In this document: one piece after another, positions 30 through 8,934 of the stretch | How the letters are laid out: each line of letters starts with the position of its first letter | Numbering within the stretch: the stretch's first letter is position 1 | NCBI GenBank assembly: GCA_011524575.1 | Contig: WTKB01000370.1 | Location: 1-11,382 of the forward strand | Reading direction: 5' to 3' | Length of the DNA stretch: 11,382 nucleotides | Source: Aquimarina sp. | GTDB taxonomy: Bacteria > Bacteroidota > Bacteroidia > Flavobacteriales > Flavobacteriaceae | Made by a program: the position numbers and the translations under genes | Notes under the pieces: generated by a model | Database searches by the model: none | The model's input: the letters and a program-made list of their open reading frames with translations, nothing else | Told to the model about the DNA's origin: nothing

Positions 30-183
30 GAGCTGATTTAAACTCACCACTTCCTGTAATCCAGAATTTAGGAACTTAAATACCTTTAAAATGGCTTAAC
101 TACTTTGAAATAGGTATTGTTTAAAAGTAAACCAATAAGGGTAAACTTTTGAATTACAGTTCACATTGGATTTAAACATGCTG
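30..183 (-). repeat. MITE-like palindromic element, copy 1 (full, inverted orientation)
   Basis: A 154-bp element with terminal inverted repeats: the left end GAGCTGATTTAAACTCAC and the right end TTTAAACATGCTG are degenerate versions of the family ends. It is the reverse complement of copies 3, 5 and 6: the arm with the CTTCCTGTAAT motif is on the left here and the arm with GAATTACAGT on the right. Flanks are TGA and TTA, both TNA but not identical, so this looks like an older insertion. It lies 78 bp upstream of the tssH start and could influence its expression, which is inference. Confidence 0.8.
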
Positions 184-236
184 TTACCCATAAATATAAA
201 TACTATTTACGGATAAAATTATACCATTCATCTTTA

Positions 237-244
237 TATATTTG
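237..244 (+). promoter_or_regulatory. Possible Bacteroidota-type promoter -7 element for tssH
   Basis: TATATTTG matches the Bacteroidota -7 consensus TAnnTTTG exactly and ends 17 bp before the tssH ATG. I find no TTTG at the usual spacing for the -33 element, and the implied leader is very short. It is a motif match only. The 184-261 stretch otherwise holds nothing recognisable. Confidence 0.3.
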
Positions 245-261
245 TTAAAAAAAGACTTACC

Positions 262-2736
262 ATGAATGTTTCTTATACCAAAAAACTAGAGGAAGCTTTA
301 AATATTGCAACATCTATTGCTAAAGAAAACCATCACGCTAGTTATGGAGCTCCTCATTTACTAAAAGCACTCTTACATAAAAATGTAGGGCTTTCAGATT
401 TATTTTTCGCTACAGATACTGATACCTATTACATTGATGAGTGGTGTGAAGTTCGTCTGGAGAATTATCCAAAAACAGCTAATGTCCCTAATAAAATTAA
501 TTTTGATAAAGAAGTACAAGCTGTTTTTACAGAAGGAAAATCACTAATGTTAAAACTTGGTGGACAAGATATTTCTGAAGTAGCTGTACTTATTTCTTTA
601 TGTACACCAGGTGTAGGTTTTAGTTATGAGCAACTAAAAACATTACCGCTACAACCTGCTTCTATTTTAGAATATTACACTAATAATAAAAACACTTCAA
701 TTAAAAAAACAGGAATAAACAATGGTATTAATGATCAAAATTTAACTGTAGATACTAGTATACTCTCAAAGTTCTGTATTGACAAAAAAGCTCAAGGGAA
801 AAACAATGAACTTAAAAAAGTATTTGGAAGAGATGGCAGTTTAAAAACAATCATTGAAATTTTAGGAAGACATTCAAAATCTAGCGTACTAATTTTAGGG
901 GATTCAGGAGTAGGTAAAACCATACTTTTTGATGGCTTTACCCAACAAATAATCGACAGAAATATCCCTAAACCATTAGAAAATGCCGAAATTTTTGAAA
1001 TTGACCTTATAAAATTAATCTCTGGAACTACCTATAAAAGTGAAGTAGAAGACCGTTTTAAAAAAATACTAAATAGTTTAAAAAGCTTCGAAAAGCCCAT
1101 TGCTTTAATTGATAATTTACAAGAACTCACTAATAAAGATAATGGTAACACAGGACTTATTAATATTTTAAAATCAGAACTTTCAAAACATGAAATTACT
1201 TTTATAGCAACCTCATCCCAAGATGGATTTAGAAAACATATCGAACCCAACCAAGGATTAGCACGTTTATTTGAACTAGTAACTATAGAAGAACCGTCTC
1301 AAAAAGAAACCTTGCGTATTATTTCTAAATCAATTGCTCCTTATGAAAGTTTTCATGGTTTAAACATTGACTCGCAAAGTATCGAAGAAGCGATCCGATT
1401 AGCCACACGATTCACTAAAGATCGGTCTTTACCTGATGTAGCTTTTGATCTCATTGACAGAACATTATCAGCTACTAGATATATGCTAGATACGACAAAT
1501 AACCAAATTGAAAAAACAAAACAAGAAATTGAAGAAATTTTAACAATAGAAGATTCTAAACAAGTATTCACAGAATTACAATGGCTTGGAATTCAACTTA
1601 AGGAACGTTTTAGCTATTTACTATTTGCAGAACTTGAAAACGAAACACTTATAAGTAGCTGTAAAACTATTGAGGAAGTAACCTCAACTTTACAAACTAT
1701 TTTAGAAGAGTTTGCAACAATACATAAAAATACTCCTAAAAATATTACTAAAAGTTTTATCACAGCCACTATTGCAAATAAAACAGGTATTCCAATTGGC
1801 AAATTACAGACTAATGAAAAAGAACGCTTACTAGCTATCGAGAACACCCTTAAAAAAAGAGTTATTGGACAAGATGTCGCTATAAAAAGTTTATCTGGAG
1901 CTATTTTAGAGTCGCGTTCTGGACTAAGTAAACCAGGATTACCTGTTGGTTCTTTCTTTTTTACAGGACCTACAGGTACAGGAAAAACCGAACTTGCAAA
2001 ATCTTTAGCCGAATTTTTATTTCAAAGTGAAGAGGCTATCATTCGTTTTGATATGTCAGAGTTTAAAGAAGAGCATTCTGCAGCTTTATTATATGGTGCA
2101 CCTCCAGGTTATGTAGGTTATGAAGAAGGAGGAGTGCTGGTAAATAAAATTAGAGAAAGACCCTATTCCATTGTTCTTTTCGATGAAATTGAAAAAGCCC
2201 ATCCATCTGTATTTGATATTTTCCTACAAATACTCGATGAAGGAAAACTTAGCGATCGATTAGGAAAAATAGGTGATTTTTCTAACGCTGTGATTCTGTT
2301 TACCTCTAATATTGGAAGTGAACAAGTAGTGCAAGCTTTTAATAGTGGGAATACACCGAATACTTCAGACCTACTGGAAACTATGGGAAATTATTTTAGA
2401 CCTGAATTCTTGGGAAGACTTACAGAAATTGTTCCTTTTGCTCCTATAAGCAAAGATCATATTGTAAAAATATTTGATATTCAGATGAAAGATCTATACG
2501 CTGCTTTAAAAAGACAGGATATCGAATTAGAACTCTCAATGGCGGCCAAAGAACAACTTGCACTTCAAGGATTCACTCCGAAATACGGAGCACGTCCTAT
2601 TCGTGGGGTTATTCGTTCTGAAATACGTTCTGTACTTTCTAAAAAAATTATCAAGGAAGAAATTTCAAAAGGAACCAAAGTATTTCTCGATGCAAAAGCA
2701 GGTATATTGAATTGGGATTTTCAAAATAAAAAATAA
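262..2736 (+). CDS. tssH: Type VI secretion ATPase TssH (ClpV-like AAA+ disaggregase)
   Basis: An 824-residue ClpB/ClpV-type double AAA+ ATPase. In type VI secretion this protein extracts and unfolds contracted TssB/TssC sheath in the cytosol so that subunits can be reused. Visible in order: a Clp N-domain (about 5-140), first ATPase module with Walker A GDSGVGKT (213-220) and pore-loop tyrosine Y258, a middle helical region (about 400-480), second module with Walker A GPTGTGKT (569-576), pore loop GYVGY (616-620), Walker B VLFDE (638-642), sensor-1 asparagine N683, arginine-finger segment RPEFLGRL (713-720) and sensor-2 GARPIRG (776-782). Oddly, the first Walker B reads ALIDN (281-285), with Asn in place of the catalytic Glu. 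Sequence alone does not fully exclude ClpB; the adjacent sheath genes make TssH by far the better call. The 203-bp gap to tssB contains a repeat fragment. Confidence 0.92.
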   Translation: MNVSYTKKLEEALNIATSIAKENHHASYGAPHLLKALLHKNVGLSDLFFATDTDTYYIDEWCEVRLENYPKTANVPNKINFDKEVQAVFTEGKSLMLKLGGQDISEVAVLISLCTPGVGFSYEQLKTLPLQPASILEYYTNNKNTSIKKTGINNGINDQNLTVDTSILSKFCIDKKAQGKNNELKKVFGRDGSLKTIIEILGRHSKSSVLILGDSGVGKTILFDGFTQQIIDRNIPKPLENAEIFEIDLIKLISGTTYKSEVEDRFKKILNSLKSFEKPIALIDNLQELTNKDNGNTGLINILKSELSKHEITFIATSSQDGFRKHIEPNQGLARLFELVTIEEPSQKETLRIISKSIAPYESFHGLNIDSQSIEEAIRLATRFTKDRSLPDVAFDLIDRTLSATRYMLDTTNNQIEKTKQEIEEILTIEDSKQVFTELQWLGIQLKERFSYLLFAELENETLISSCKTIEEVTSTLQTILEEFATIHKNTPKNITKSFITATIANKTGIPIGKLQTNEKERLLAIENTLKKRVIGQDVAIKSLSGAILESRSGLSKPGLPVGSFFFTGPTGTGKTELAKSLAEFLFQSEEAIIRFDMSEFKEEHSAALLYGAPPGYVGYEEGGVLVNKIRERPYSIVLFDEIEKAHPSVFDIFLQILDEGKLSDRLGKIGDFSNAVILFTSNIGSEQVVQAFNSGNTPNTSDLLETMGNYFRPEFLGRLTEIVPFAPISKDHIVKIFDIQMKDLYAALKRQDIELELSMAAKEQLALQGFTPKYGARPIRGVIRSEIRSVLSKKIIKEEISKGTKVFLDAKAGILNWDFQNKK

Positions 2737-2820
2737 TCATGTGTACTTTTACAGCAATTTTAAAGACCCATTGATATAATCAGTATAAATCATTATATTT
2801 AAACCAATTCTTGCTTAAGA

Positions 2821-2867
2821 GCGTGTTTAAACGCACTACTTCCTGTAACCATATTAATTAGTTACAG
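2821..2867. repeat. MITE-like element, copy 2 (truncated end plus small hairpin)
   Basis: Preceded by TAA (2818-2820; the terminal G of the element is 2821 or 2819 depending on alignment), the sequence GAGCGTGTTTAAACGCACTA continuing into CTTCCTGTAAC matches one arm of the repeat family. The opposite arm is missing. CTGTAAC (2843-2849) instead pairs with GTTACAG (2861-2867) around an 11-nt loop. It sits in the tssH-tssB gap. The remainder of that 203-bp gap is AT-rich and shows nothing else I can support. Confidence 0.6.
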
Positions 2868-2939
2868 TAATTTCAAAGAAAAAATTATAAAAATTTAGGT
2901 ACAATTATTAAATACTAATCATTTAAAAAAATAATTACT

Positions 2940-3383
2940 ATGAATAACTATTCTTTAGGAGGATCAGAAGTAAAATCTGGATCTGGAGAGGCTATATCAG
3001 AAATTGATCAAAATAAAACATTACTTGTTCAAAAATTAACCCAAGATCCGCCTGTAAAACCTGTGGTAGTGGGAGGGCTGTCTTCTATAGAAGAAGTTTT
3101 TAGTCACTTCCAGCCAGAAGTTGAACTCACTCATGAAAATTCAGAAGGTATCGAAACTAAAGAAACTTTACATTTTAAAAATGTTGGAGATTTCACTAAA
3201 GGAGGGATTATCAATCAAAGCGAATACCTTAAAAATCTAAATGCCGAAAAGGATCAATACCTAAAGGTTGTAAAACAACTAAACTCTAATAAAGTCCTCA
3301 AAATGGCTATTGAAAACCCAGAAGCAAAACAAGCTCTATTGGAATCAATCCATTCTTTACTCACAGAACTCAAAGAGAAATAA
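2940..3383 (+). CDS. tssB: Type VI secretion contractile sheath small subunit TssB (Bacteroidota type)
   Basis: A 147-residue cytosolic protein that fits the small sheath subunit of subtype iii type VI systems. It pairs with TssC to form the sheath around the Hcp tube. After a polar, probably flexible N-terminus (1-40) comes a beta-rich core containing LHFKNVGDFTKGGIINQS (77-94), the counterpart of the F-x-x-M-x-D-F-x-P segment of canonical TssB, then a helical C-terminus (about 95-147) ending in a charged tail. Its length is somewhat below the roughly 160-170 residues of proteobacterial TssB. Identification rests on this core and on the immediately following tssC, 64 bp downstream on the same strand. 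The ATG is preceded by an A-rich stretch with no Shine-Dalgarno sequence, normal for this phylum. Confidence 0.85.
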   Translation: MNNYSLGGSEVKSGSGEAISEIDQNKTLLVQKLTQDPPVKPVVVGGLSSIEEVFSHFQPEVELTHENSEGIETKETLHFKNVGDFTKGGIINQSEYLKNLNAEKDQYLKVVKQLNSNKVLKMAIENPEAKQALLESIHSLLTELKEK

Positions 3384-3447
3384 CACCATATACATAGTAT
3401 TTGGACTCCACTATTTTATAAAAAATTAAAACCAATATTAGGTAAAC

Positions 3448-4794
3448 ATGGCATTACAAAAACAACAGGAAATAATTATTGAAAACCCTGTACAAAAATT
3501 AAAAGAAACAGAAGAAAAACTCGCTAAATATGGTGGTTTTGATTTATTAGAATCTGCTATTGAAAATGTGCAGAATATGAACCCTTCAAGAAAAGCACGT
3601 AAGCGTATTTTCCTTTCGGAGAGTTCAAAAAAATCGGAACGAGAAATGCTTGCAAAAACATTGCAGATCTGGGCAGATGTACTTTCTTCTTCTGAGGATA
3701 TTTCTGAAATGGCTTCCCTATCCGAACAGCAATCAAAAATCGCACAGGAATACCTTACAAAAAACTTAGGAAGTGCTCTAGAACAAACCCGAGACATGGA
3801 ACAATCTTACCGTTCTATGGCATTATTTTATAAAAATACCGAGTCTAGCAAAGTTAAAAATATCAATATTGTCAATGCGGAGTTGGATCAATTAAAAGAC
3901 TTAGACAACACCCGTTTTATCGATGCTATCGAAGAAGAACTCGTACAAGGATACGACCGTTTAGACCTCAGAGACAATTACGGACTTCTTGTGATTCCTG
4001 GGTATTTAGGATCTAATAAAGTGGTAGAAAAATGGGCTAAAATTGCATATAAAAATAAAGTAATGCTCGTTACCGACTTTGAACACCTTGATGAACCTGA
4101 TGATGTAATGGAGATGTTTGAACTGGCAAATCTAACAGGTGGTGATGACTATAGATCAAATGTAATCATGACATGTAACTGGCTTGTAGGACGTGGAAAA
4201 TACGATGAAGTAGGTGAAGAAGAAGATTTATTTGTACCTCCTTCTAGTGCATTAGCAGGAAAAATATACCAAACTTTAATGTCTCAAGTAACCGCTGGTA
4301 AAAAGTTTGGAGGTATTAACGAAGTAGATGGTGTGCGTTTTGACTTAAAAAAAGGTGAGATTTCTCAACTTGAAAAAATGGGATTGGTACCCATGGTAAA
4401 TGAATATGGCAAAGTAATGGCATTTTCAGCCAAAACCTTATTCAACGGAGATAATCTAGGTTTACAAACCTATTCTGTGGTACGTGTATTTGACTATGTA
4501 ACTAAGGTACTTATGGATTTCTTAAATCGTCGTGCTTTTGAAAACTTCAACGTCAAAACAAAAAAACAACTAAGTAGTCAAATCGTGAAATTTCTAGACG
4601 GAATTACAGGGCCAGATAAACTCATTGAGGATTTTTCTATTAAAAAATTCGATCAGGATCCACAACAAAAAGACCGTATTTTACTAGATATTCAAATAAA
4701 ACCCTACTTTCCAGCTAAAAACTTTATGATTAAATTAGATGGTCAAAAAGGTGATGAAGGTACAGAATGGGGTACCGATTATGAGCAATCATAA
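3448..4794 (+). CDS. tssC: Type VI secretion contractile sheath large subunit TssC (Bacteroidota DUF5458 type)
   Basis: A 448-residue protein of the Bacteroidota TssC family (known as DUF5458). With TssB it builds the cytosolic contractile sheath. It has a charged helical N-terminal third (1-165), the conserved core beginning at about 175 with the GLLVIPGYLGSN segment (179-190), then KVMLVTDFEHL (204-214), the NLTGGDDYRSNVIMTCNW segment (228-245) and the PPSSALAGKIY motif (264-274), and a C-terminal half with an FDYVTKVLMDFLNRRAFEN helix (348-366), likely in the sheath interface. The last beta-strand (412-430) is followed by an acidic, glycine-containing tail. Length is normal for the family and no frameshift is visible. 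It lies 64 bp after tssB and is probably co-transcribed. No type VI gene follows: a repeat copy and a convergent gene close the cluster here. Confidence 0.92.
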   Translation: MALQKQQEIIIENPVQKLKETEEKLAKYGGFDLLESAIENVQNMNPSRKARKRIFLSESSKKSEREMLAKTLQIWADVLSSSEDISEMASLSEQQSKIAQEYLTKNLGSALEQTRDMEQSYRSMALFYKNTESSKVKNINIVNAELDQLKDLDNTRFIDAIEEELVQGYDRLDLRDNYGLLVIPGYLGSNKVVEKWAKIAYKNKVMLVTDFEHLDEPDDVMEMFELANLTGGDDYRSNVIMTCNWLVGRGKYDEVGEEEDLFVPPSSALAGKIYQTLMSQVTAGKKFGGINEVDGVRFDLKKGEISQLEKMGLVPMVNEYGKVMAFSAKTLFNGDNLGLQTYSVVRVFDYVTKVLMDFLNRRAFENFNVKTKKQLSSQIVKFLDGITGPDKLIEDFSIKKFDQDPQQKDRILLDIQIKPYFPAKNFMIKLDGQKGDEGTEWGTDYEQS

Positions 4795-4841
4795 AAAGTT
4801 ATAAGTATTCCTTAAAAGTTATTTTTAAACTATTAATTTTA

Positions 4842-4998
4842 GAGCTTGTTTAAACTCAATACGAACTGTAATTCAAAATTTTGCCATTATTTGGTTTGCT
4901 TTTAAATGATGCGTATATCGAAACATATAAATCGTTTTAAAAGTGACCCAATTTCTTAAAATTTTAGATTACAGGGAGTAGTGAATTTAAACATACTC
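4842..4998 (+). repeat. MITE-like palindromic element, copy 3 (full)
   Basis: A 157-bp element from GAGCTTGTTTAAACTC to TTTAAACATACTC, flanked by TTA (4839-4841) and TAA (4999-5001). It has the two family arms (AACTGTAATTCAAAA on the left, TTAGATTACAGGGAGTAG on the right) and a central segment resembling copies 5 and 6. It sits exactly between the convergent tssC and the 5027-5710 gene, 28 bp from the latter's stop codon. Its long stem could end transcription from either side, which is inference. Confidence 0.85.
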
Positions 4999-5026
4999 TA
5001 AATACAAACTTTAAATTCTCAAAAAC

Positions 5027-5710
5027 CTACATACTGCTTAAACGCTTTTTGGTAGCCTCTAATACTTTTTTACTTGCTTCTAGCTGCTGTGAGAACTTTT
5101 TTATTTCAGCCTCATTAGTAATTATTAACTGCTGTTTCTCTTTAATTTTTTCTTGCATATCAACAATTGATTCTTTAGCCTTTTGAATACCCTTGTTTAG
5201 ATTTTCATCTTTTTTAGTAAAATCTTTGATATCTGACTGTGTACCTTCTATAATTTCTGTATAATACGCAGGAATATAGGTATTAATAAATCCTTCAAAA
5301 ATTTCTTTAAGTGCTGCATATTCTTTAGGGTATTCTTTAGCATCTATATACATATCGTATCCAAAAGCAGCAAATACTTTCATTTGCGAACCTACCCCCT
5401 CTCCTTCTACAATTTGTGTATAGAAGTTCAAAGCTTTAGTAGATATTTTGTTAATAACGACCTTTTCTATACTTAATAAATCTTTATTAGATAATATCCC
5501 AATCCCCCCTATTTTAAAATCATGGTTTTCTTTTAAATAATCTGCCCAAGCAGCTTTAAGAGTTTTTGTATCAGGATCTAAATTTACCTCTAAACAAGGA
5601 CGTAAGACTTTATCATATTTTATAGTAGCATTAATAGGTGTGAACGTTTGTCCACTCATATACATACCACCCAACATAAAAGTAGCTATCAATAAGTTTT
5701 TAAATTTCAT
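5027..5710 (-). CDS. Secreted protein of unknown function with C-terminal coiled coil
   Basis: A 227-residue protein I do not recognise. Residues 1-21 form a typical flavobacterial Sec signal peptide: basic KFK, a hydrophobic core, then MSGQ, with cleavage probably around Gln21. There is no lipobox cysteine, so a soluble periplasmic or exported protein is expected. The middle (about 25-155) is a mixed alpha/beta region with several aromatic residues (for example YDMYIDAKEYPKEY, 118-131). Residues about 160-225 are Lys/Glu/Gln-rich helix that should form a coiled coil. One cysteine, C39, lies in the mature part. It is convergent with tssC and separated from it by repeat copy 3. Nearness to a type VI cluster permits a guess at an effector or accessory role, but nothing in the sequence shows one. 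Confidence 0.72.
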   Translation of the reverse strand: MKFKNLLIATFMLGGMYMSGQTFTPINATIKYDKVLRPCLEVNLDPDTKTLKAAWADYLKENHDFKIGGIGILSNKDLLSIEKVVINKISTKALNFYTQIVEGEGVGSQMKVFAAFGYDMYIDAKEYPKEYAALKEIFEGFINTYIPAYYTEIIEGTQSDIKDFTKKDENLNKGIQKAKESIVDMQEKIKEKQQLIITNEAEIKKFSQQLEASKKVLEATKKRLSSM

Positions 5711-5823
5711 AGGTCAATAGATTATTTTTTAATATTCCATAAAGTTAAAAAAGTGGTGTAGGAACAGCCAAACTATATCAATTTTTATGCCAATCATAAA
5801 TTATTTACTTAAAAAATAACTAG

Positions 5824-5995
5824 AACCCTAATCGTTTGATTTCAGAAGTAGCACAAGAATCACATCAGGAAGTTACACTTGAAAGTGCTTTCAGTACCCC
5901 TACAGTCTCACCTAACCAAGCAGTAAGTTAGTGGTAGTGGAGCTGCTGCTGCTGACCTGCAACCAGAAAGACCTTCTCTTAACACCTCTCTCTAA
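5824..5995 (+). pseudogene. Frameshifted C-terminal remnant of an unidentified gene
   Basis: From 5824 a stop-free, protein-like stretch of 35 codons (including RLISEVAQESHQEV and AFSTPTVSPNQAVS) ends at TAG 5929-5931. From 5933, shifted by one base, the text continues as GSGAAAADLQPERPSLNTSL and stops at TAA 5993-5995. Removing one T near 5929 joins the two into AVSSGSGAAAAD and so on, so a single-base insertion probably broke the frame. The stretch is visibly richer in G and C than its surroundings. There is no start codon, and a stop at 5821 closes the frame upstream, so only the tail of the old gene remains. The final TAA doubles as the target duplication of repeat copy 4. I cannot tell which family it came from. 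Confidence 0.45.
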
Positions 5996-6077
5996 GAATT
6001 TGTTTAAACTCACTACTTCCTGTAATTCAAAAGTTTAAACTTTTGAATTACAGGAAGTAGTGAGTTTAAACAAGCTC
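5996..6077. repeat. Short-form MITE-like element, copy 4: near-perfect 82-bp palindrome
   Basis: The element runs from GAATTTGTTTAAACTCAC to GTGAGTTTAAACAAGCTC and is flanked by TAA on both sides (5993-5995 and 6078-6080), a 3-bp target duplication. Positions 6000-6073 form a perfect palindrome of 37 bp per arm with no loop, centred on GTTTAAAC. Only two mismatches (5998 and 5999) occur in the outer part. Its arms combine the outer sequence of one arm of the full element (ACTTCCTGTAAT) with the inner sequence of the other (TCAAAAGTTT). Confidence 0.88.
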
Positions 6078-6217
6078 TAAAGGCTGTAAAGCAAAAAACT
6101 GCAAAAAAAGAAGTTAATATATGTAATTCAACAGAAAAAACTAATACACAACTAAAATACAGTCATTTATATGCTACGAAAAAAATTATTGACGTATATT
6201 TACTGACCACTTATTAG
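6047..6217 (+). other. Open, possibly decayed coding stretch between two repeat copies
   Basis: From 6047 to a TAG at 6215-6217 there is a stop-free frame of 56 codons. The unique part (6080-6214) reads, for example, AVKQKTAKKEVNICNSTEKT and later YSHLYATKKIIDVYLLTTY. It has no ATG in a sensible place, its beginning lies inside repeat copy 4 and its stop lies on the target triplet and first base of copy 5. In such AT-rich DNA this length can occur by chance. It is either a gene fragment boxed in by two insertions or noncoding spacer. Confidence 0.2.
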
Positions 6218-6370
6218 AGCTTGTTTAAAGGGAACACAAACTGTAATTCAAAAGTTTAGGGTTTAGGTTTACTCTTAAATGATGTGCATATCGAGATATG
6301 TAAGTCTTTTTAAAGTAATCCAAGTTCTTAAAATTTTGGATTACAGGAAGTAGTGAGTTTAAACAAGCTC
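6217..6370 (+). repeat. MITE-like palindromic element, copy 5 (full)
   Basis: A 154-bp element, GAGCTTGTTTAAAGGG to TTTAAACAAGCTC, with a perfect 3-bp target duplication TTA (6214-6216 and 6371-6373). The arms are ACTGTAATTCAAAAGTTT on the left and AAAATTTTGGATTACAGGAA on the right. The centre contains CATATCGAGATATG, a small palindrome at the tip of the whole-element hairpin. Its right end is 21 bp from the ATG at 6392, so the downstream gene's expression signals must lie in or beyond the repeat. Confidence 0.9.
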
Positions 6371-6391
6371 TTAACTATAAAACTAATAACA

Positions 6392-7018
6392 ATGCCTACT
6401 TCACAAAGTTTAGATGAAATTGAAATTGTAAATGAAATTAAATCGTTTTACAAAAACACACCAAAAAAAAATAAAGTAAAAGAACATTTAGCAGTTTTAA
6501 TAGAAAAACCACAAGAATGCTTAGAAATCTTAGATTCAATAATAGCAAATAGCTCTTCTAGATTAATCGAAAATAAATCTTATAAAGCTACCAAAGCACT
6601 TGTAGAAGCTCTTGGAAGAGTTAGAGCTCAAAATCTCTTATTAGGAATAGAAAAACTACGTATAAGTGAATGTAGTGAAGAATCAAGAACAAAGATAAAT
6701 AATATTGAACTCCCTTCTGCAACAAGATTTCGACTAGCTATAGAAGGAAATTATAGAGAAATTATAGAAAATGCTGAAAAAAAGGACGAAATTACAAACC
6801 AAGATGCAGGTTCTTTAGCAATATCCGAAAAATTAGTAAAAAATTGTAATGAAGCTATTGATGTTATAGTTGCTGAAACTAGAGGTAACACTACAAGTCT
6901 TCTTGGATGTTTTTCTACCGCTATAGCTACACGCCGTCCTGAAGCTACAACTAATCCTAACCGTAATACTGGTACTATAGCAACAAGTAAACCAAGTAAG
7001 AACCCTAAAATAAAATAA
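6392..7018 (+). CDS. Hypothetical helical protein with low-complexity C-terminus
   Basis: A 208-residue protein I do not recognise. No signal peptide or membrane segment is visible, so a cytosolic protein is likely. Residues 1-165 look almost wholly alpha-helical, rich in Glu, Lys, Ile and Leu, with segments such as EHLAVLIEKPQECLEILDSI (31-50) and ATKALVEALGRVRAQNLLLG (66-85). Residues about 166-208 form a polar Thr/Asn/Pro/Ser/Lys tail ending PSKNPKIK. I chose the ATG at 6392. A GTG at 6353 in the same frame would lengthen it by 13 residues, but those codons are the terminal repeat of MITE copy 5. The gene lies between copies 5 and 6 and faces rmuC. It could be cargo or an orphan accessory gene; no function can be assigned. 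Confidence 0.6.
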   Translation: MPTSQSLDEIEIVNEIKSFYKNTPKKNKVKEHLAVLIEKPQECLEILDSIIANSSSRLIENKSYKATKALVEALGRVRAQNLLLGIEKLRISECSEESRTKINNIELPSATRFRLAIEGNYREIIENAEKKDEITNQDAGSLAISEKLVKNCNEAIDVIVAETRGNTTSLLGCFSTAIATRRPEATTNPNRNTGTIATSKPSKNPKIK

Positions 7019-7038
7019 TACTAGTTGGATTTAAGTTA

Positions 7039-7194
7039 GAGCATGTTTAAAGGTATCACTTTTTGTAATTCAAAAATTTACCATTATTGCTTTATTTTTA
7101 AAAGGACTTATATATCGAGATATGTAAGTCCTTTTAAAGTAATCCTAGTTCTTAAAATTTTGGATTACAGGAAGTGATGCCTTTAAACAAGCTC
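7039..7194 (+). repeat. MITE-like palindromic element, copy 6 (full)
   Basis: A 156-bp element from GAGCATGTTTAAAGG to CTTTAAACAAGCTC, with perfect TTA target duplications (7036-7038 and 7195-7197). Its central hairpin is the best preserved: TTTAAAAGGACTTA (7097-7110) pairs without mismatch with TAAGTCCTTTTAAA (7125-7138), and ATATC/GATAT extend the stem inward to a two-base loop. It lies between convergent genes (the 6392-7018 gene and the rmuC end). Confidence 0.9.
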
Positions 7195-7269
7195 TTATGT
7201 AAAAACACCTAAATCAATAAGATTTAAAATTTCTTTTTGTTGTGGGTTAGTGGTAGTGTTATCTTTCAT
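7195..7269 (-). CDS. Possible 24-residue micro-ORF downstream of rmuC
   Basis: An ATG at 7269 (minus) opens a 24-codon frame starting MKDNTTTNPQQKEIL and ending at TAA 7197-7195. It starts 20 bp after the rmuC stop on the same strand and could be translated from the same message. The TAA is the target triplet of MITE copy 6, but since TAA is regenerated by the duplication, the stop predates the insertion. The residue composition is protein-like, yet this length is easily reached by chance. No family is recognised. Confidence 0.22.
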   Translation of the reverse strand: MKDNTTTNPQQKEILNLIDLGVFT

Positions 7270-7288
7270 CAATAGTAAATTATAATTG

Positions 7289-8752
7289 TTAACCTTGTGT
7301 ATCGGCTTTTTTCAGTAAATTATCTGGTAGTGATTTTTTAGCTTTAGCCCCCATTTTCTTAAGTTTTTCGACACTTACCACCAAATTACCACGACCTGTA
7401 ACAAGCTTTTTCATGGCTGAAGTGTAGTCTTTTTTGGTGTCGTCTATTTTTTTACCTATTTGGGTTAGGTCTTTAATCAATCCTTCAAATTTATCGTATA
7501 AAGAACCTGCTTGTTTCGCAATTTCAAGAGCATTACGTTGTTGTTTTTCCGTATTCCACATACTGTCTATGGTTCGTAATGTGGCAAGTAATGTCGATGG
7601 GGTAACAATAACTATATTCTTTTCAAAAGCTTGAGAGTAAATACTACTTTCCTCATTTACAGCCACAGAAAAAGCGGTTTCTACAGGAACAAAAAGAAGT
7701 ACAAAGTCTAACGAATCAATATCATACAAATCTTGGTAATTTTTAGCGGAAAGTTCCGAGATATGTTTTTTAAGAGAGAATAAATGTTCCTTTAAATGAT
7801 TATTTCTGATAGCCAAATCATCTTGCTCATTAACATACCTCTCGTAAGCCGTTAAAGATACTTTAGAATCTATAATAATCTTTTTTCCATCGGGGAGGTA
7901 AATAACGACATCAGGCATCGCACGACTACCGTCTTCTCTCGTAAAATTTTGCTGAACTTTATATTCACGATCCTTTTCTAGACCTGATTTTTCAAGTACA
8001 CGTTCTAAGACTAACTCCCCCCAATTCCCTTGGGTTTTATTATCTCCTTTAAGTGCACGTGTGAGATTTATGGCTTCCTGACTCATTTTCTCATTGAGAT
8101 TTTTAAGCCCAATAATCTGCTCTTTTAAAGTAGCGTGATTGATGCTGTTTTCTCTATGAGTTTGTTCTACTTTTTTCTCGAAATAATTTATTTTTTCTTG
8201 CAGAGGTAATAAGATATTTTTAATATTCTCGCTGTTTTGAATAGTAAATTTTTGAGACTTTTCTTCTAAAATTTTATTGGCTAAATTTTGAAACTCTATA
8301 TTAAATCTTTTTTGAAGGGCAATACTCTCTTGTTGTTGCTGCTTCATTACCTTTTTTAAATTCTCATTCTCTGAAGTCTTTCTTGTGAGTTCTAAATTAA
8401 CTTCTTGATTTAATAGTCGAAATTTATCTAATTCATTAAAATAATCCTGCTCTTTATTTTCTAGTTTAGATTCTAGTTTATGTTGTATTTGAGATAATTC
8501 TTCTTTAAAATACTTTTCGGCAGCTAGCTCTTTAAACTTAAAAGATTTAAGCTCGTTATCTAAACGCTTTTGAAGTGAGTTTTCTTTTTCTTCGCTGTTA
8601 CTCAGTTGGGTTTTAAGCAACTCAATTTCACGTTCATAACTATTAAATTTATTTTCCTGACGTAATTTAAATATATAAGAAACGATAACATAACTTATAC
8701 CTGCACCAAAAAGTAATGCCCCAAAAGCTGTTAAAAAAAGATCTAGTGTCAT
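7289..8752 (-). CDS. rmuC: DNA recombination protein RmuC
   Basis: A 487-residue RmuC-family protein. RmuC limits rearrangements at inverted repeats in E. coli and has a predicted nuclease-like core; its biochemical activity is not settled. Visible: one N-terminal membrane anchor (about residues 4-28), a long coiled coil (about 30-235), then the conserved RmuC domain with QGNWGELVLERVLEKSGL (241-258), the RAMPDVVIYLPDGK motif (277-290) and IIIDSKVSLTAYERYV (292-307). The Asp of PDVV and the D-S-K of IIIDSK fit a PD-(D/E)xK-like fold. The C-terminus (about 445-487) is basic. Length is typical. The start at 8752 gives a complete anchor. It is a single-gene unit separated from upstream amt by repeat fragments and a terminator. 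Its family link to inverted-repeat stability is worth noting beside so many palindromes. Confidence 0.93.
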   Translation of the reverse strand: MTLDLFLTAFGALLFGAGISYVIVSYIFKLRQENKFNSYEREIELLKTQLSNSEEKENSLQKRLDNELKSFKFKELAAEKYFKEELSQIQHKLESKLENKEQDYFNELDKFRLLNQEVNLELTRKTSENENLKKVMKQQQQESIALQKRFNIEFQNLANKILEEKSQKFTIQNSENIKNILLPLQEKINYFEKKVEQTHRENSINHATLKEQIIGLKNLNEKMSQEAINLTRALKGDNKTQGNWGELVLERVLEKSGLEKDREYKVQQNFTREDGSRAMPDVVIYLPDGKKIIIDSKVSLTAYERYVNEQDDLAIRNNHLKEHLFSLKKHISELSAKNYQDLYDIDSLDFVLLFVPVETAFSVAVNEESSIYSQAFEKNIVIVTPSTLLATLRTIDSMWNTEKQQRNALEIAKQAGSLYDKFEGLIKDLTQIGKKIDDTKKDYTSAMKKLVTGRGNLVVSVEKLKKMGAKAKKSLPDNLLKKADTQG

Positions 8753-8816
8753 TTTAATAATGAATTTTTATTAAAAATTAAATATAAGTAATCAAATTAA
8801 TAATTTAAGTTTTTTT

Positions 8817-8880
8817 GAACTTGTTTAAGAGCTTGTTTAAAGGGAATACAAACTGTAATTCAAAAAAATTAGGGTATTAG
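8817..8880 (+). repeat. MITE-like element, copy 7 (left half), with a second degenerate end
   Basis: From 8829, preceded by TAA, GAGCTTGTTTAAAGGGAATA continues into AACTGTAATTCAAAA and a segment like the first 50 bp of copy 5 (TTAGGGTATTAG against TTAGGGTTTAGG). Similarity ends near 8880, where the amt terminator begins; the central and right parts are absent. Immediately upstream, GAACTTGTTTAA (8817-8828) is another, degenerate copy of the terminal repeat in the same direction. Confidence 0.7.
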
Positions 8881-8886
8881 AAACAA

Positions 8887-8920
8887 AAAAAGAGGCTATC
8901 TTTTCAGACAGCCTCTTTTT
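8887..8920 (-). terminator. Intrinsic terminator of glnK-amt (bidirectional form)
   Basis: AAAAAGAGGCT (8887-8897) pairs perfectly with AGCCTCTTTTT (8910-8920) around a 12-nt loop, inside which TCT/AGA can pair. On the minus strand this is a GC-containing stem flanked by an A-run and a U-run, placed 37 bp after the amt stop. The flanking A and T runs would let it work in both directions. Confidence 0.85.
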
Positions 8921-8921
8921 A

Positions 8922-8934
8922 GAGCTTGTTTAAA
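8922..8934 (+). repeat. Solo MITE terminal repeat beside the terminator
   Basis: GAGCTTGTTTAAA, an exact match to the consensus family end, preceded by TTA (8919-8921). It points the same way as the end at 8829, so it is not the right-hand end of copy 7, which would read TTTAAACAAGCTC. The following sequence does not resemble either arm, so this is a truncated end. Confidence 0.55.

Follow-up and report, generated by a model that had tools for sequence, protein, structure and literature searches.

Copies of a miniature inverted-repeat transposable element (MITE) recur along an 11,382-nucleotide stretch of an Aquimarina genome (GenBank assembly GCA_011524575.1, contig WTKB01000370.1), which we call the window. 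We are highly confident that this family was spread in trans by the DDE transposase of an IS5-family, IS1031-like insertion sequence (IS). Such a transposase, from an element with ends like GAGNNTGTTTAAA, would have bound the 13-bp ends of the MITE in trans, and the 154-bp element would have been inserted into TNA with duplication of the triplet. We infer mobilisation in trans from three observations: the flanks of the copies, a junction that is empty in relatives, and an IS with matching ends in a congener.

The window's genome (G000) is a 2.09-Mb assembly that is 89% complete, and the window is its contig C82. Copies in G000 were studied in 61 contigs totalling 453 kb (60 fetched contigs plus the window), which were picked for matches and so give no estimate of density. 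For comparison, we used 40 fetched stretches of Aquimarina sp. RZ0 (G324), a congener, and genomes from two other genera of the same family (G033 and G094), whose consensus sequences were built from 7 and 3 copies only.

Copies, target sites and an empty junction

The first-pass annotation of the window had read its repeats as a MITE family that should recur across the genome, and it does: the exact 13-mer end GAGCTTGTTTAAA occurs 474 times in G000 (229 + 245), while a reversed control occurs 0 times. The 61 contigs contain 178 exact ends, 81 with one mismatch and 66 with two. Six matches to the reversed pattern, each with two mismatches, turned up in the first 41 contigs. Pairing ends with up to two mismatches each produced 92 elements, a few of the short ones possibly chance pairs: 52 of 154–157 bp, 6 of 82–83 bp, 12 of 47–48 bp, 11 of 20 bp and 11 of other sizes. 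The G000 consensus has perfect 13-bp inverted ends, and the element is short, multicopy and free of transposase, i.e., a MITE by the usual definition. The short forms (82, 47–48 and 20 bp) look like deletions within the hairpin described below, and a deletion running between the two TTTAAA motifs would be expected to produce the 20-bp form.

Of the 259 ends in the 61 contigs that have no more than one mismatch, 245 adjoin TNA, against a background of 10.2%. In 59 of 92 pairs the two flanking triplets agree, a number that none of 5000 shuffles of the right flank reached (mean 35.5), so the target-site duplication in G000 is 3 bp long and of the form TNA. Open reading frames (ORFs) of 100 aa or more make up 87% of the sample, yet only 3 of 92 element midpoints fall inside one; since an element breaks whatever frame runs through it, this supports intergenic insertion only weakly. 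Unpaired ends with at most one mismatch number 64 in the first 41 contigs, and 30 of them are no more than 160 bp away from a contig end, suggesting that the repeat breaks the assembly.

One insertion can be compared with its counterpart in relatives. The G000 element at L240:3100-3254 (contig C276; entry span 3097-3254) sits between rsmH (TIGR00006) and ftsL (PF19579) and is flanked on each side by TAA; the left triplet doubles as the rsmH stop codon. Four joined flanks were searched against the genus, and this junction is the one of the four behind our verdict. In all six relatives viewed, only a short spacer separates rsmH from ftsL and the element is absent, though these six loci were chosen for a match running across the junction, a choice that leans towards empty sites. 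Because the spacer has diverged, the site is empty at the level of gene order and not to the base. The absence of empty sites in relatives, which had been named as a finding that would speak against a mobile element, is therefore not what we see. About 15 kb beyond this element, a 47-bp form lies at 18133-18179, between ftsZ and a YqeY gene.

The family is narrowly distributed. Among 299 family genomes, more than three exact ends occur only in G000, G033 and G094; among 66 genus genomes, they occur only in G000 (474) and RZ0 (64), the remaining 64 genomes having at most three. RZ0 has 36 paired MITEs, mostly 155 bp long, with the left end GAGTATGTTTAAA or near it and the right end GAGCTTGTTTAAA; 35 are flanked by identical TAA or TTA triplets and one by TGA/TAA. 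Median identity to the consensus is 98% for the RZ0 copies and 94% for the full copies in G000, which points to recent transposition in RZ0 and an older burst in G000. The G000 family now appears to be decaying, its copies differing by private changes and the search of its assembly finding no matching transposase.

Hairpin MITEs with the common 13-bp ends also occur in G033 and G094, with a different core, and lengths overall stay within 154–161 bp. There are thus two core types, one in G000 and RZ0 and another in G033 and G094; the similarity between the G033 and G094 cores (28) exceeds the shuffled maximum of 23, with 0 of 200 shuffles as high. On G094 contig C38 (L036:996-1025), a 30-bp palindrome consists of two 13-bp ends and four central bases, with TAA on each side.

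An IS5-family element with matching ends

A DDE_Tnp_1 profile search of RZ0, followed by inspection of the ends, found an 884-bp IS (L125, 1138-2021) with GAGTATGTTTAAAAA at both ends (13-bp end GAGTATGTTTAAA), TAA on both flanks and one 256-aa ORF. Its 13-bp end exactly matches one of the two ends of the RZ0 MITE. The transposase scores 149.7 bits against NF033580, the IS5-family equivalog (cut-off 110), and passes the cut-offs of both DUF4096 and DDE_Tnp_1; it has no relatives in the PDB. D100, D173 and E215 are invariant across seven transposase proteins and probably form the catalytic DDE triad.

This is an IS5-family transposase with like 13-bp ends and 3-bp TTA/TAA flanks, the kind of element that the first-pass annotation proposed to look for. 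Its assignment of the MITE ends to the IS1031 group of that family is supported: NF033580 places the RZ0 element in IS5, and the group assignment is a fit by ends, duplication, size and single ORF. Judged by sequence features, a parent with GAG ends, a 3-bp TNA duplication and one ORF fits an IS1031-like element. Known elements show how loosely the group can be drawn. IS1237 of Leifsonia has the ends GAGGTGG/GAGATGG and the repeats TTA (TAA), and ISLxx6 has a single ORF and a 3-nt insertion site, described as IS1031 features, yet clustering placed both in IS427, and some members have features of both groups (PMC2516522). In Amoebophilus, ISCaa8 (893 bp) has two ORFs and a repeat length of 0, and ISCaa9 is 881 bp long (PMC3196728). 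The rules of the group are therefore not strict. The RZ0 parent resembles an IS1031-type IS in its 884-bp length, GAG ends, TAA flanks and one ORF, whereas the MITE has only the parent's ends and no transposase.

Transposase searches gave 44 IS loci, of which the 26 longer ones (25 distinct) were passed to an end-finder whose scoring gave preference to GAG and to matching triplets; the near-full L181 and 17 fragments were left out. With that preference built in, 16 of the 25 distinct loci begin with GAG on the left and lie between identical TTA or TAA triplets, nine of these being copies in one genome (G328). One other has a GAT end with TAA flanks, and eight, some of which lie at contig edges, have no clear ends. 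The two ends of an IS copy in a Chryseobacterium metagenome-assembled genome are GAGCTTGTTTAAA and GAGTATGTTTAAA, the end pair of the RZ0 MITE. The RZ0 transposase has matches in 2 of the 68 genomes searched, RZ0 itself and G328.

Several results weigh against this account. The RZ0 transposase has no match (E <= 1e-10) and DUF4096 no match (0.01) in G000, G033 or G094, and beyond the ends the MITE cores have no similarity to the RZ0 IS. In addition, the flanking triplets differ in 33 of the 92 G000 pairs, 24 of which have TNA at both flanks. The first-pass annotation noted that the window lacks the parent transposase; with no match found in the G000 assembly either, mobilisation in G000 has to be read from the congener. 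Multicopy ISs are easily lost from incomplete assemblies. Since the cores are dissimilar, the MITE did not arise simply by loss of the interior of the RZ0 IS. The non-identical triplets suggest rearrangement, mutation or misassembly between copies, which we offer as an explanation. Among non-identical flanks in the 61 contigs, TTA/TAA occurs 14 times and TAA/TTA 5 times, where random recombination between copies should give equal numbers; this excess is unexplained and may be chance.

Two other candidate parents were rejected. The sole DDE_Tnp_1 gene found in G000, on contig C100, has a MITE pair upstream, but no pair of 13-mer ends brackets it. This gene, which looks IS4-like, contains one in-frame TAG. 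For the G033 MITE, a second IS5-family IS of the same genome (ends GAACCTGTTTAAA) was considered together with its relatives, but their flanks are mostly ATT, AAT, ATA and TAT, not TNA. The family genomes contain a second IS5-family group (L043, L044 and L047-L075) with ends like GAANNNNTTTAAAC, lengths of ~890–930 bp and mostly ATT/AAT/ATA-type flanks.

A hairpin that favours one strand

The G000 consensus folds into one end-to-end hairpin (-65.5 kcal/mol), and the RZ0, G033 and G094 consensuses likewise fold over their full length, with inner-arm pairing of 0.59–0.67 against 0.41–0.43 after shuffling. Covariation was assessed in an alignment of 86 elements, comprising 51 of the 52 full copies from G000 (30-183 was left out) and 35 from RZ0; the paired structure was derived from this same alignment, in which 95.8% of the paired cells do pair. 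Two-sided changes occupy 304 cells, compared with 128 after shuffling and 24–45 after sliding, but part of this signal is a single difference between the two species that enters the count repeatedly. Counted by pairs, 15 of 37 have two-sided changes (11.4 shuffled; 4 of 500 shuffles as high), and further pair types are barely above shuffles (44 vs 41.8; 50 of 500). When only G000 is considered, paired sites with both bases changed retain a standard pair in 41 cells and have lost it in 5, though these copies are not independent.

The two strands do not fold equally well. The ratio of G.U to A.C mismatches is 288:94 in G000, 264:38 in RZ0 and 18:12 in G094; in G033 it is 9:33 on the reference strand, i.e., the opposite strand is favoured. 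The better-folding strand is constant among copies (50/52 in G000, 35/35 in RZ0, 7/7 in G033 and 3/3 in G094) and agrees within each core type. For the consensuses, the strands differ by 14.2, 18.1, 17.9 and 23.3 kcal/mol, and randomly swapping the arms of mismatched columns reached these values in 9, 6, 1 and 1 of 400 trials. G.U/G.T is favoured over A.C in single-stranded RNA and single-stranded DNA alike, so these data fit either of the two as the folding molecule.

A one-strand fold would follow directly if the elements were palindromes of the REP/BIME type that a Y1/RAYT transposase mobilises as single-stranded DNA, and one strand does fold better in all four families examined. We nevertheless consider this very improbable. 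REP/BIME elements move without target duplication, whereas these have 3-bp duplications (35/36 in RZ0) and symmetric 13-bp ends that they have in common with a DDE-transposase IS. REP hairpins carry GTAG/CGTC tags (PMC3733652); the ends here read GAGCTTG and the TNA duplication is present.

Arm-to-arm templated correction (quasi-palindrome conversion) could instead have made both the covariation and the near-perfect arms, with the strand asymmetry arising by chance in a few ancestral elements. The 82-bp forms with near-perfect arms, the mixture of arm variants CT..AG and GG..CC among copies, the existence of only two independent core types and the lack of strand bias in single-copy and distinct variants all agree with this. 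Correction should remove both kinds of mismatch equally, however, so it does not predict the excess of G.U over A.C seen above (on the opposite strand in G033), and the arm-swap control seldom reached the observed strand differences (9, 6, 1 and 1 of 400). We regard this explanation as quite possible, if short of probable.

The history of the variants bears on when any preference acted. Transitions of the wobble-forming kind, counted by copies in G000, outnumber the opposite kind at paired sites (132:80) but not at unpaired sites (26:55). Single-copy variants show no such bias (14:16), nor do distinct variants (33:34), and RZ0 shows no difference by any count; the G000 excess therefore sits in variants common to many copies. 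Read-through transcription finds no support as the cause of the strand bias: in G000 the surplus of wobble changes among one-sided departures at paired sites is much the same whether copies are co-directional (29:16), opposite (28:16) or neither (57:29), and the RZ0 set (13:8) is too small to judge by. The unbiased single-copy variants suggest neutral decay after insertion, with a fold preference, if any, acting in the lineages that multiply, and such decay of placed copies speaks against the host making use of each one and favours a step in propagation. One-strand pairing would then have been kept in the lineages that amplified. We tentatively propose that elements with common 13-bp ends, lengths of 154–161 bp, at least two unrelated cores and a one-strand hairpin aid their own propagation as a folded RNA or single strand, although we think this somewhat doubtful, and the shared ancestry of the copies leaves few independent events.

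The elements might also be host-functional repeats (e.g., mRNA stabilisers, terminators or RNase III sites like those of ERIC and Correia) held in place by host selection. They form long hairpins, lie within 34 bp of a gene on the stop side in 38 of 62 cases and less than 23 bp from one on the start side in only 2 of 64 (these are mechanically called ORFs, and a gene cut by an element also ends there), and RNase III or RNase E effects are known for Correia and ERIC (PMC10969869, PMC2229807). Between tandem genes, RZ0 elements lean towards one orientation (16 same, 8 opposite), but G000 elements do not (11 and 10). Relative to an upstream gene within 250 bp, the counts are 20 same and 22 opposite in G000 and 12 and 7 in RZ0, with no clear bias. 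Together with the unbiased single-copy variants (14 vs 16) and the many unpaired ends (64 in 41 contigs, 30 near contig ends), this makes host selection unlikely in our view. The Bacteroidota promoter motif TAnnTTTG is absent from the four MITE consensuses, Rfam has no match to the elements in five sources, and viral contigs contain no paired ends for two end patterns.

The window and known elements

All elements found in the window are listed in the table. The ends that the first-pass annotation listed differ from the 13-mer by 0–2 mismatches, whereas 30 Markov-simulated windows gave on average 0.07 matches with one mismatch, 0.77 with two and no exact match. The first-pass annotation located the four full elements and the 82-bp form correctly, as well as the truncated ends at 8829 and 8922, but its third truncated end begins at 2819, not 2821. 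It placed TNA before every end, which holds for all those it listed and fails for the additional decayed end, and it correctly gave three elements (5996, 6217 and 7039) identical triplets. It did not mention that the full elements are hairpins over their whole length.

MITE copies and MITE ends in the window (positions in the 11,382-nucleotide stretch)
Feature	Position	Strand	Remarks
Full-length MITE, 154 bp	30..183	-	Flanks TGA/TTA; 77% to consensus, most diverged of 52 full copies
Truncated MITE end GAGCGTGTTTAAA	2819..2860	+	TAA before; far boundary approximate
Full-length MITE, 157 bp	4842..4998	+	Flanks TTA/TAA
82-bp short form	5996..6077	.	Near-perfect palindrome, one arm twice; flanks TAA/TAA
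Full-length MITE, 154 bp	6217..6370	+	93.5% to consensus; flanks TTA/TTA; single hairpin, single-stranded DNA z = -6.35
Full-length MITE, 156 bp	7039..7194	+	Flanks TTA/TTA
Decayed MITE end GAACTTGTTTAAG	8817..8829	+	Abuts the 8829 end; preceded by TTT, not TNA
Truncated MITE end, ~40 bp of left arm	8829..8870	+	TAA before; far boundary approximate
Solo 13-bp end without element body	8922..8934	+	TTA before

By Pfam, the genes of the window encode a ClpV/ClpB-like ATPase, TssC, RmuC, an ammonium transporter, P-II and an HhH-GPD DNA-repair protein, and there is a weak TssB-like match below the Pfam cut-off. Positions 262-4794, with the ATPase, the weak TssB-like match and TssC (PF17541, E 5e-237), probably belong to a Bacteroidota type VI secretion locus and have MITEs or MITE ends on both sides. 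Two ORFs have no Pfam match: 6353-7018 and a 227-aa ORF at 5027-5710. The GTG start of the longest reading of ORF 6353-7018 falls inside the right end of a MITE, and ATG 6392 is the likelier start. At 2.09 Mb and 89% completeness, G000 is smaller than the other genus genomes that are at least 90% complete (2.9–7.0 Mb) and may represent a reduced or host-bound lineage.

Known bacterial MITEs offer partial parallels. Correia/NEMIS elements reach very high copy numbers, the parent of RUP is IS630, and Correia, ERIC and RUP duplicate a 2-bp TA target. The elements described here have neither TA termini nor a 2-bp TA duplication but TNA. Long stem-loops in bacterial MITEs of roughly 100–200 bp are on record for Correia, ERIC and RUP (PMC2229807). 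Correia/NEMIS elements of Neisseria are mobile repeats of 107 and 155 bp whose transcripts form long stem-loops (PMC2229807), and they differ in having TA termini, where ours have TNA, 13-bp GAG ends and an IS5-family parent. ERIC and RUP are small MITEs that form a stem-loop by pairing of their 5' and 3' ends (PMC2229807), with TA termini and other sequences and hosts. RNase cleavage has been linked to Correia and ERIC RNA (PMC10969869). A MITE expansion with a known parent IS has been described in another Bacteroidota genome, Cardinium, but that parent belongs to IS982 (PMC9769881) and not to the IS5 family.

Among the listed full-text matches (titles and abstract openings, with subscription papers and ISfinder outside their scope), none reports this MITE in Aquimarina or Flavobacteriaceae. 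Words beginning "compensat" are absent from the available text of PMC10969869, PMC2229807 and PMC3049150, and in the passages of the cited literature we saw no MITEs with common ends but unrelated cores whose fold covaries and is strand-specific. The family is a new one among MITEs of a known kind, and its strand-specific fold is unexplained.

For the genus, the result ties a very high-copy repeat to a likely type of transposase where 64 of 66 genomes have at most three exact ends, and the high copy number suggests why the G000 assembly breaks so often. We know of no model for DDE-transposase MITEs that requires a strand-specific folded RNA or single strand. If the fold does aid propagation, it might protect a transcript or recruit the transposase or a replication step, and the success of these MITEs may then depend on a one-strand fold during mobilisation, not on use by the host.

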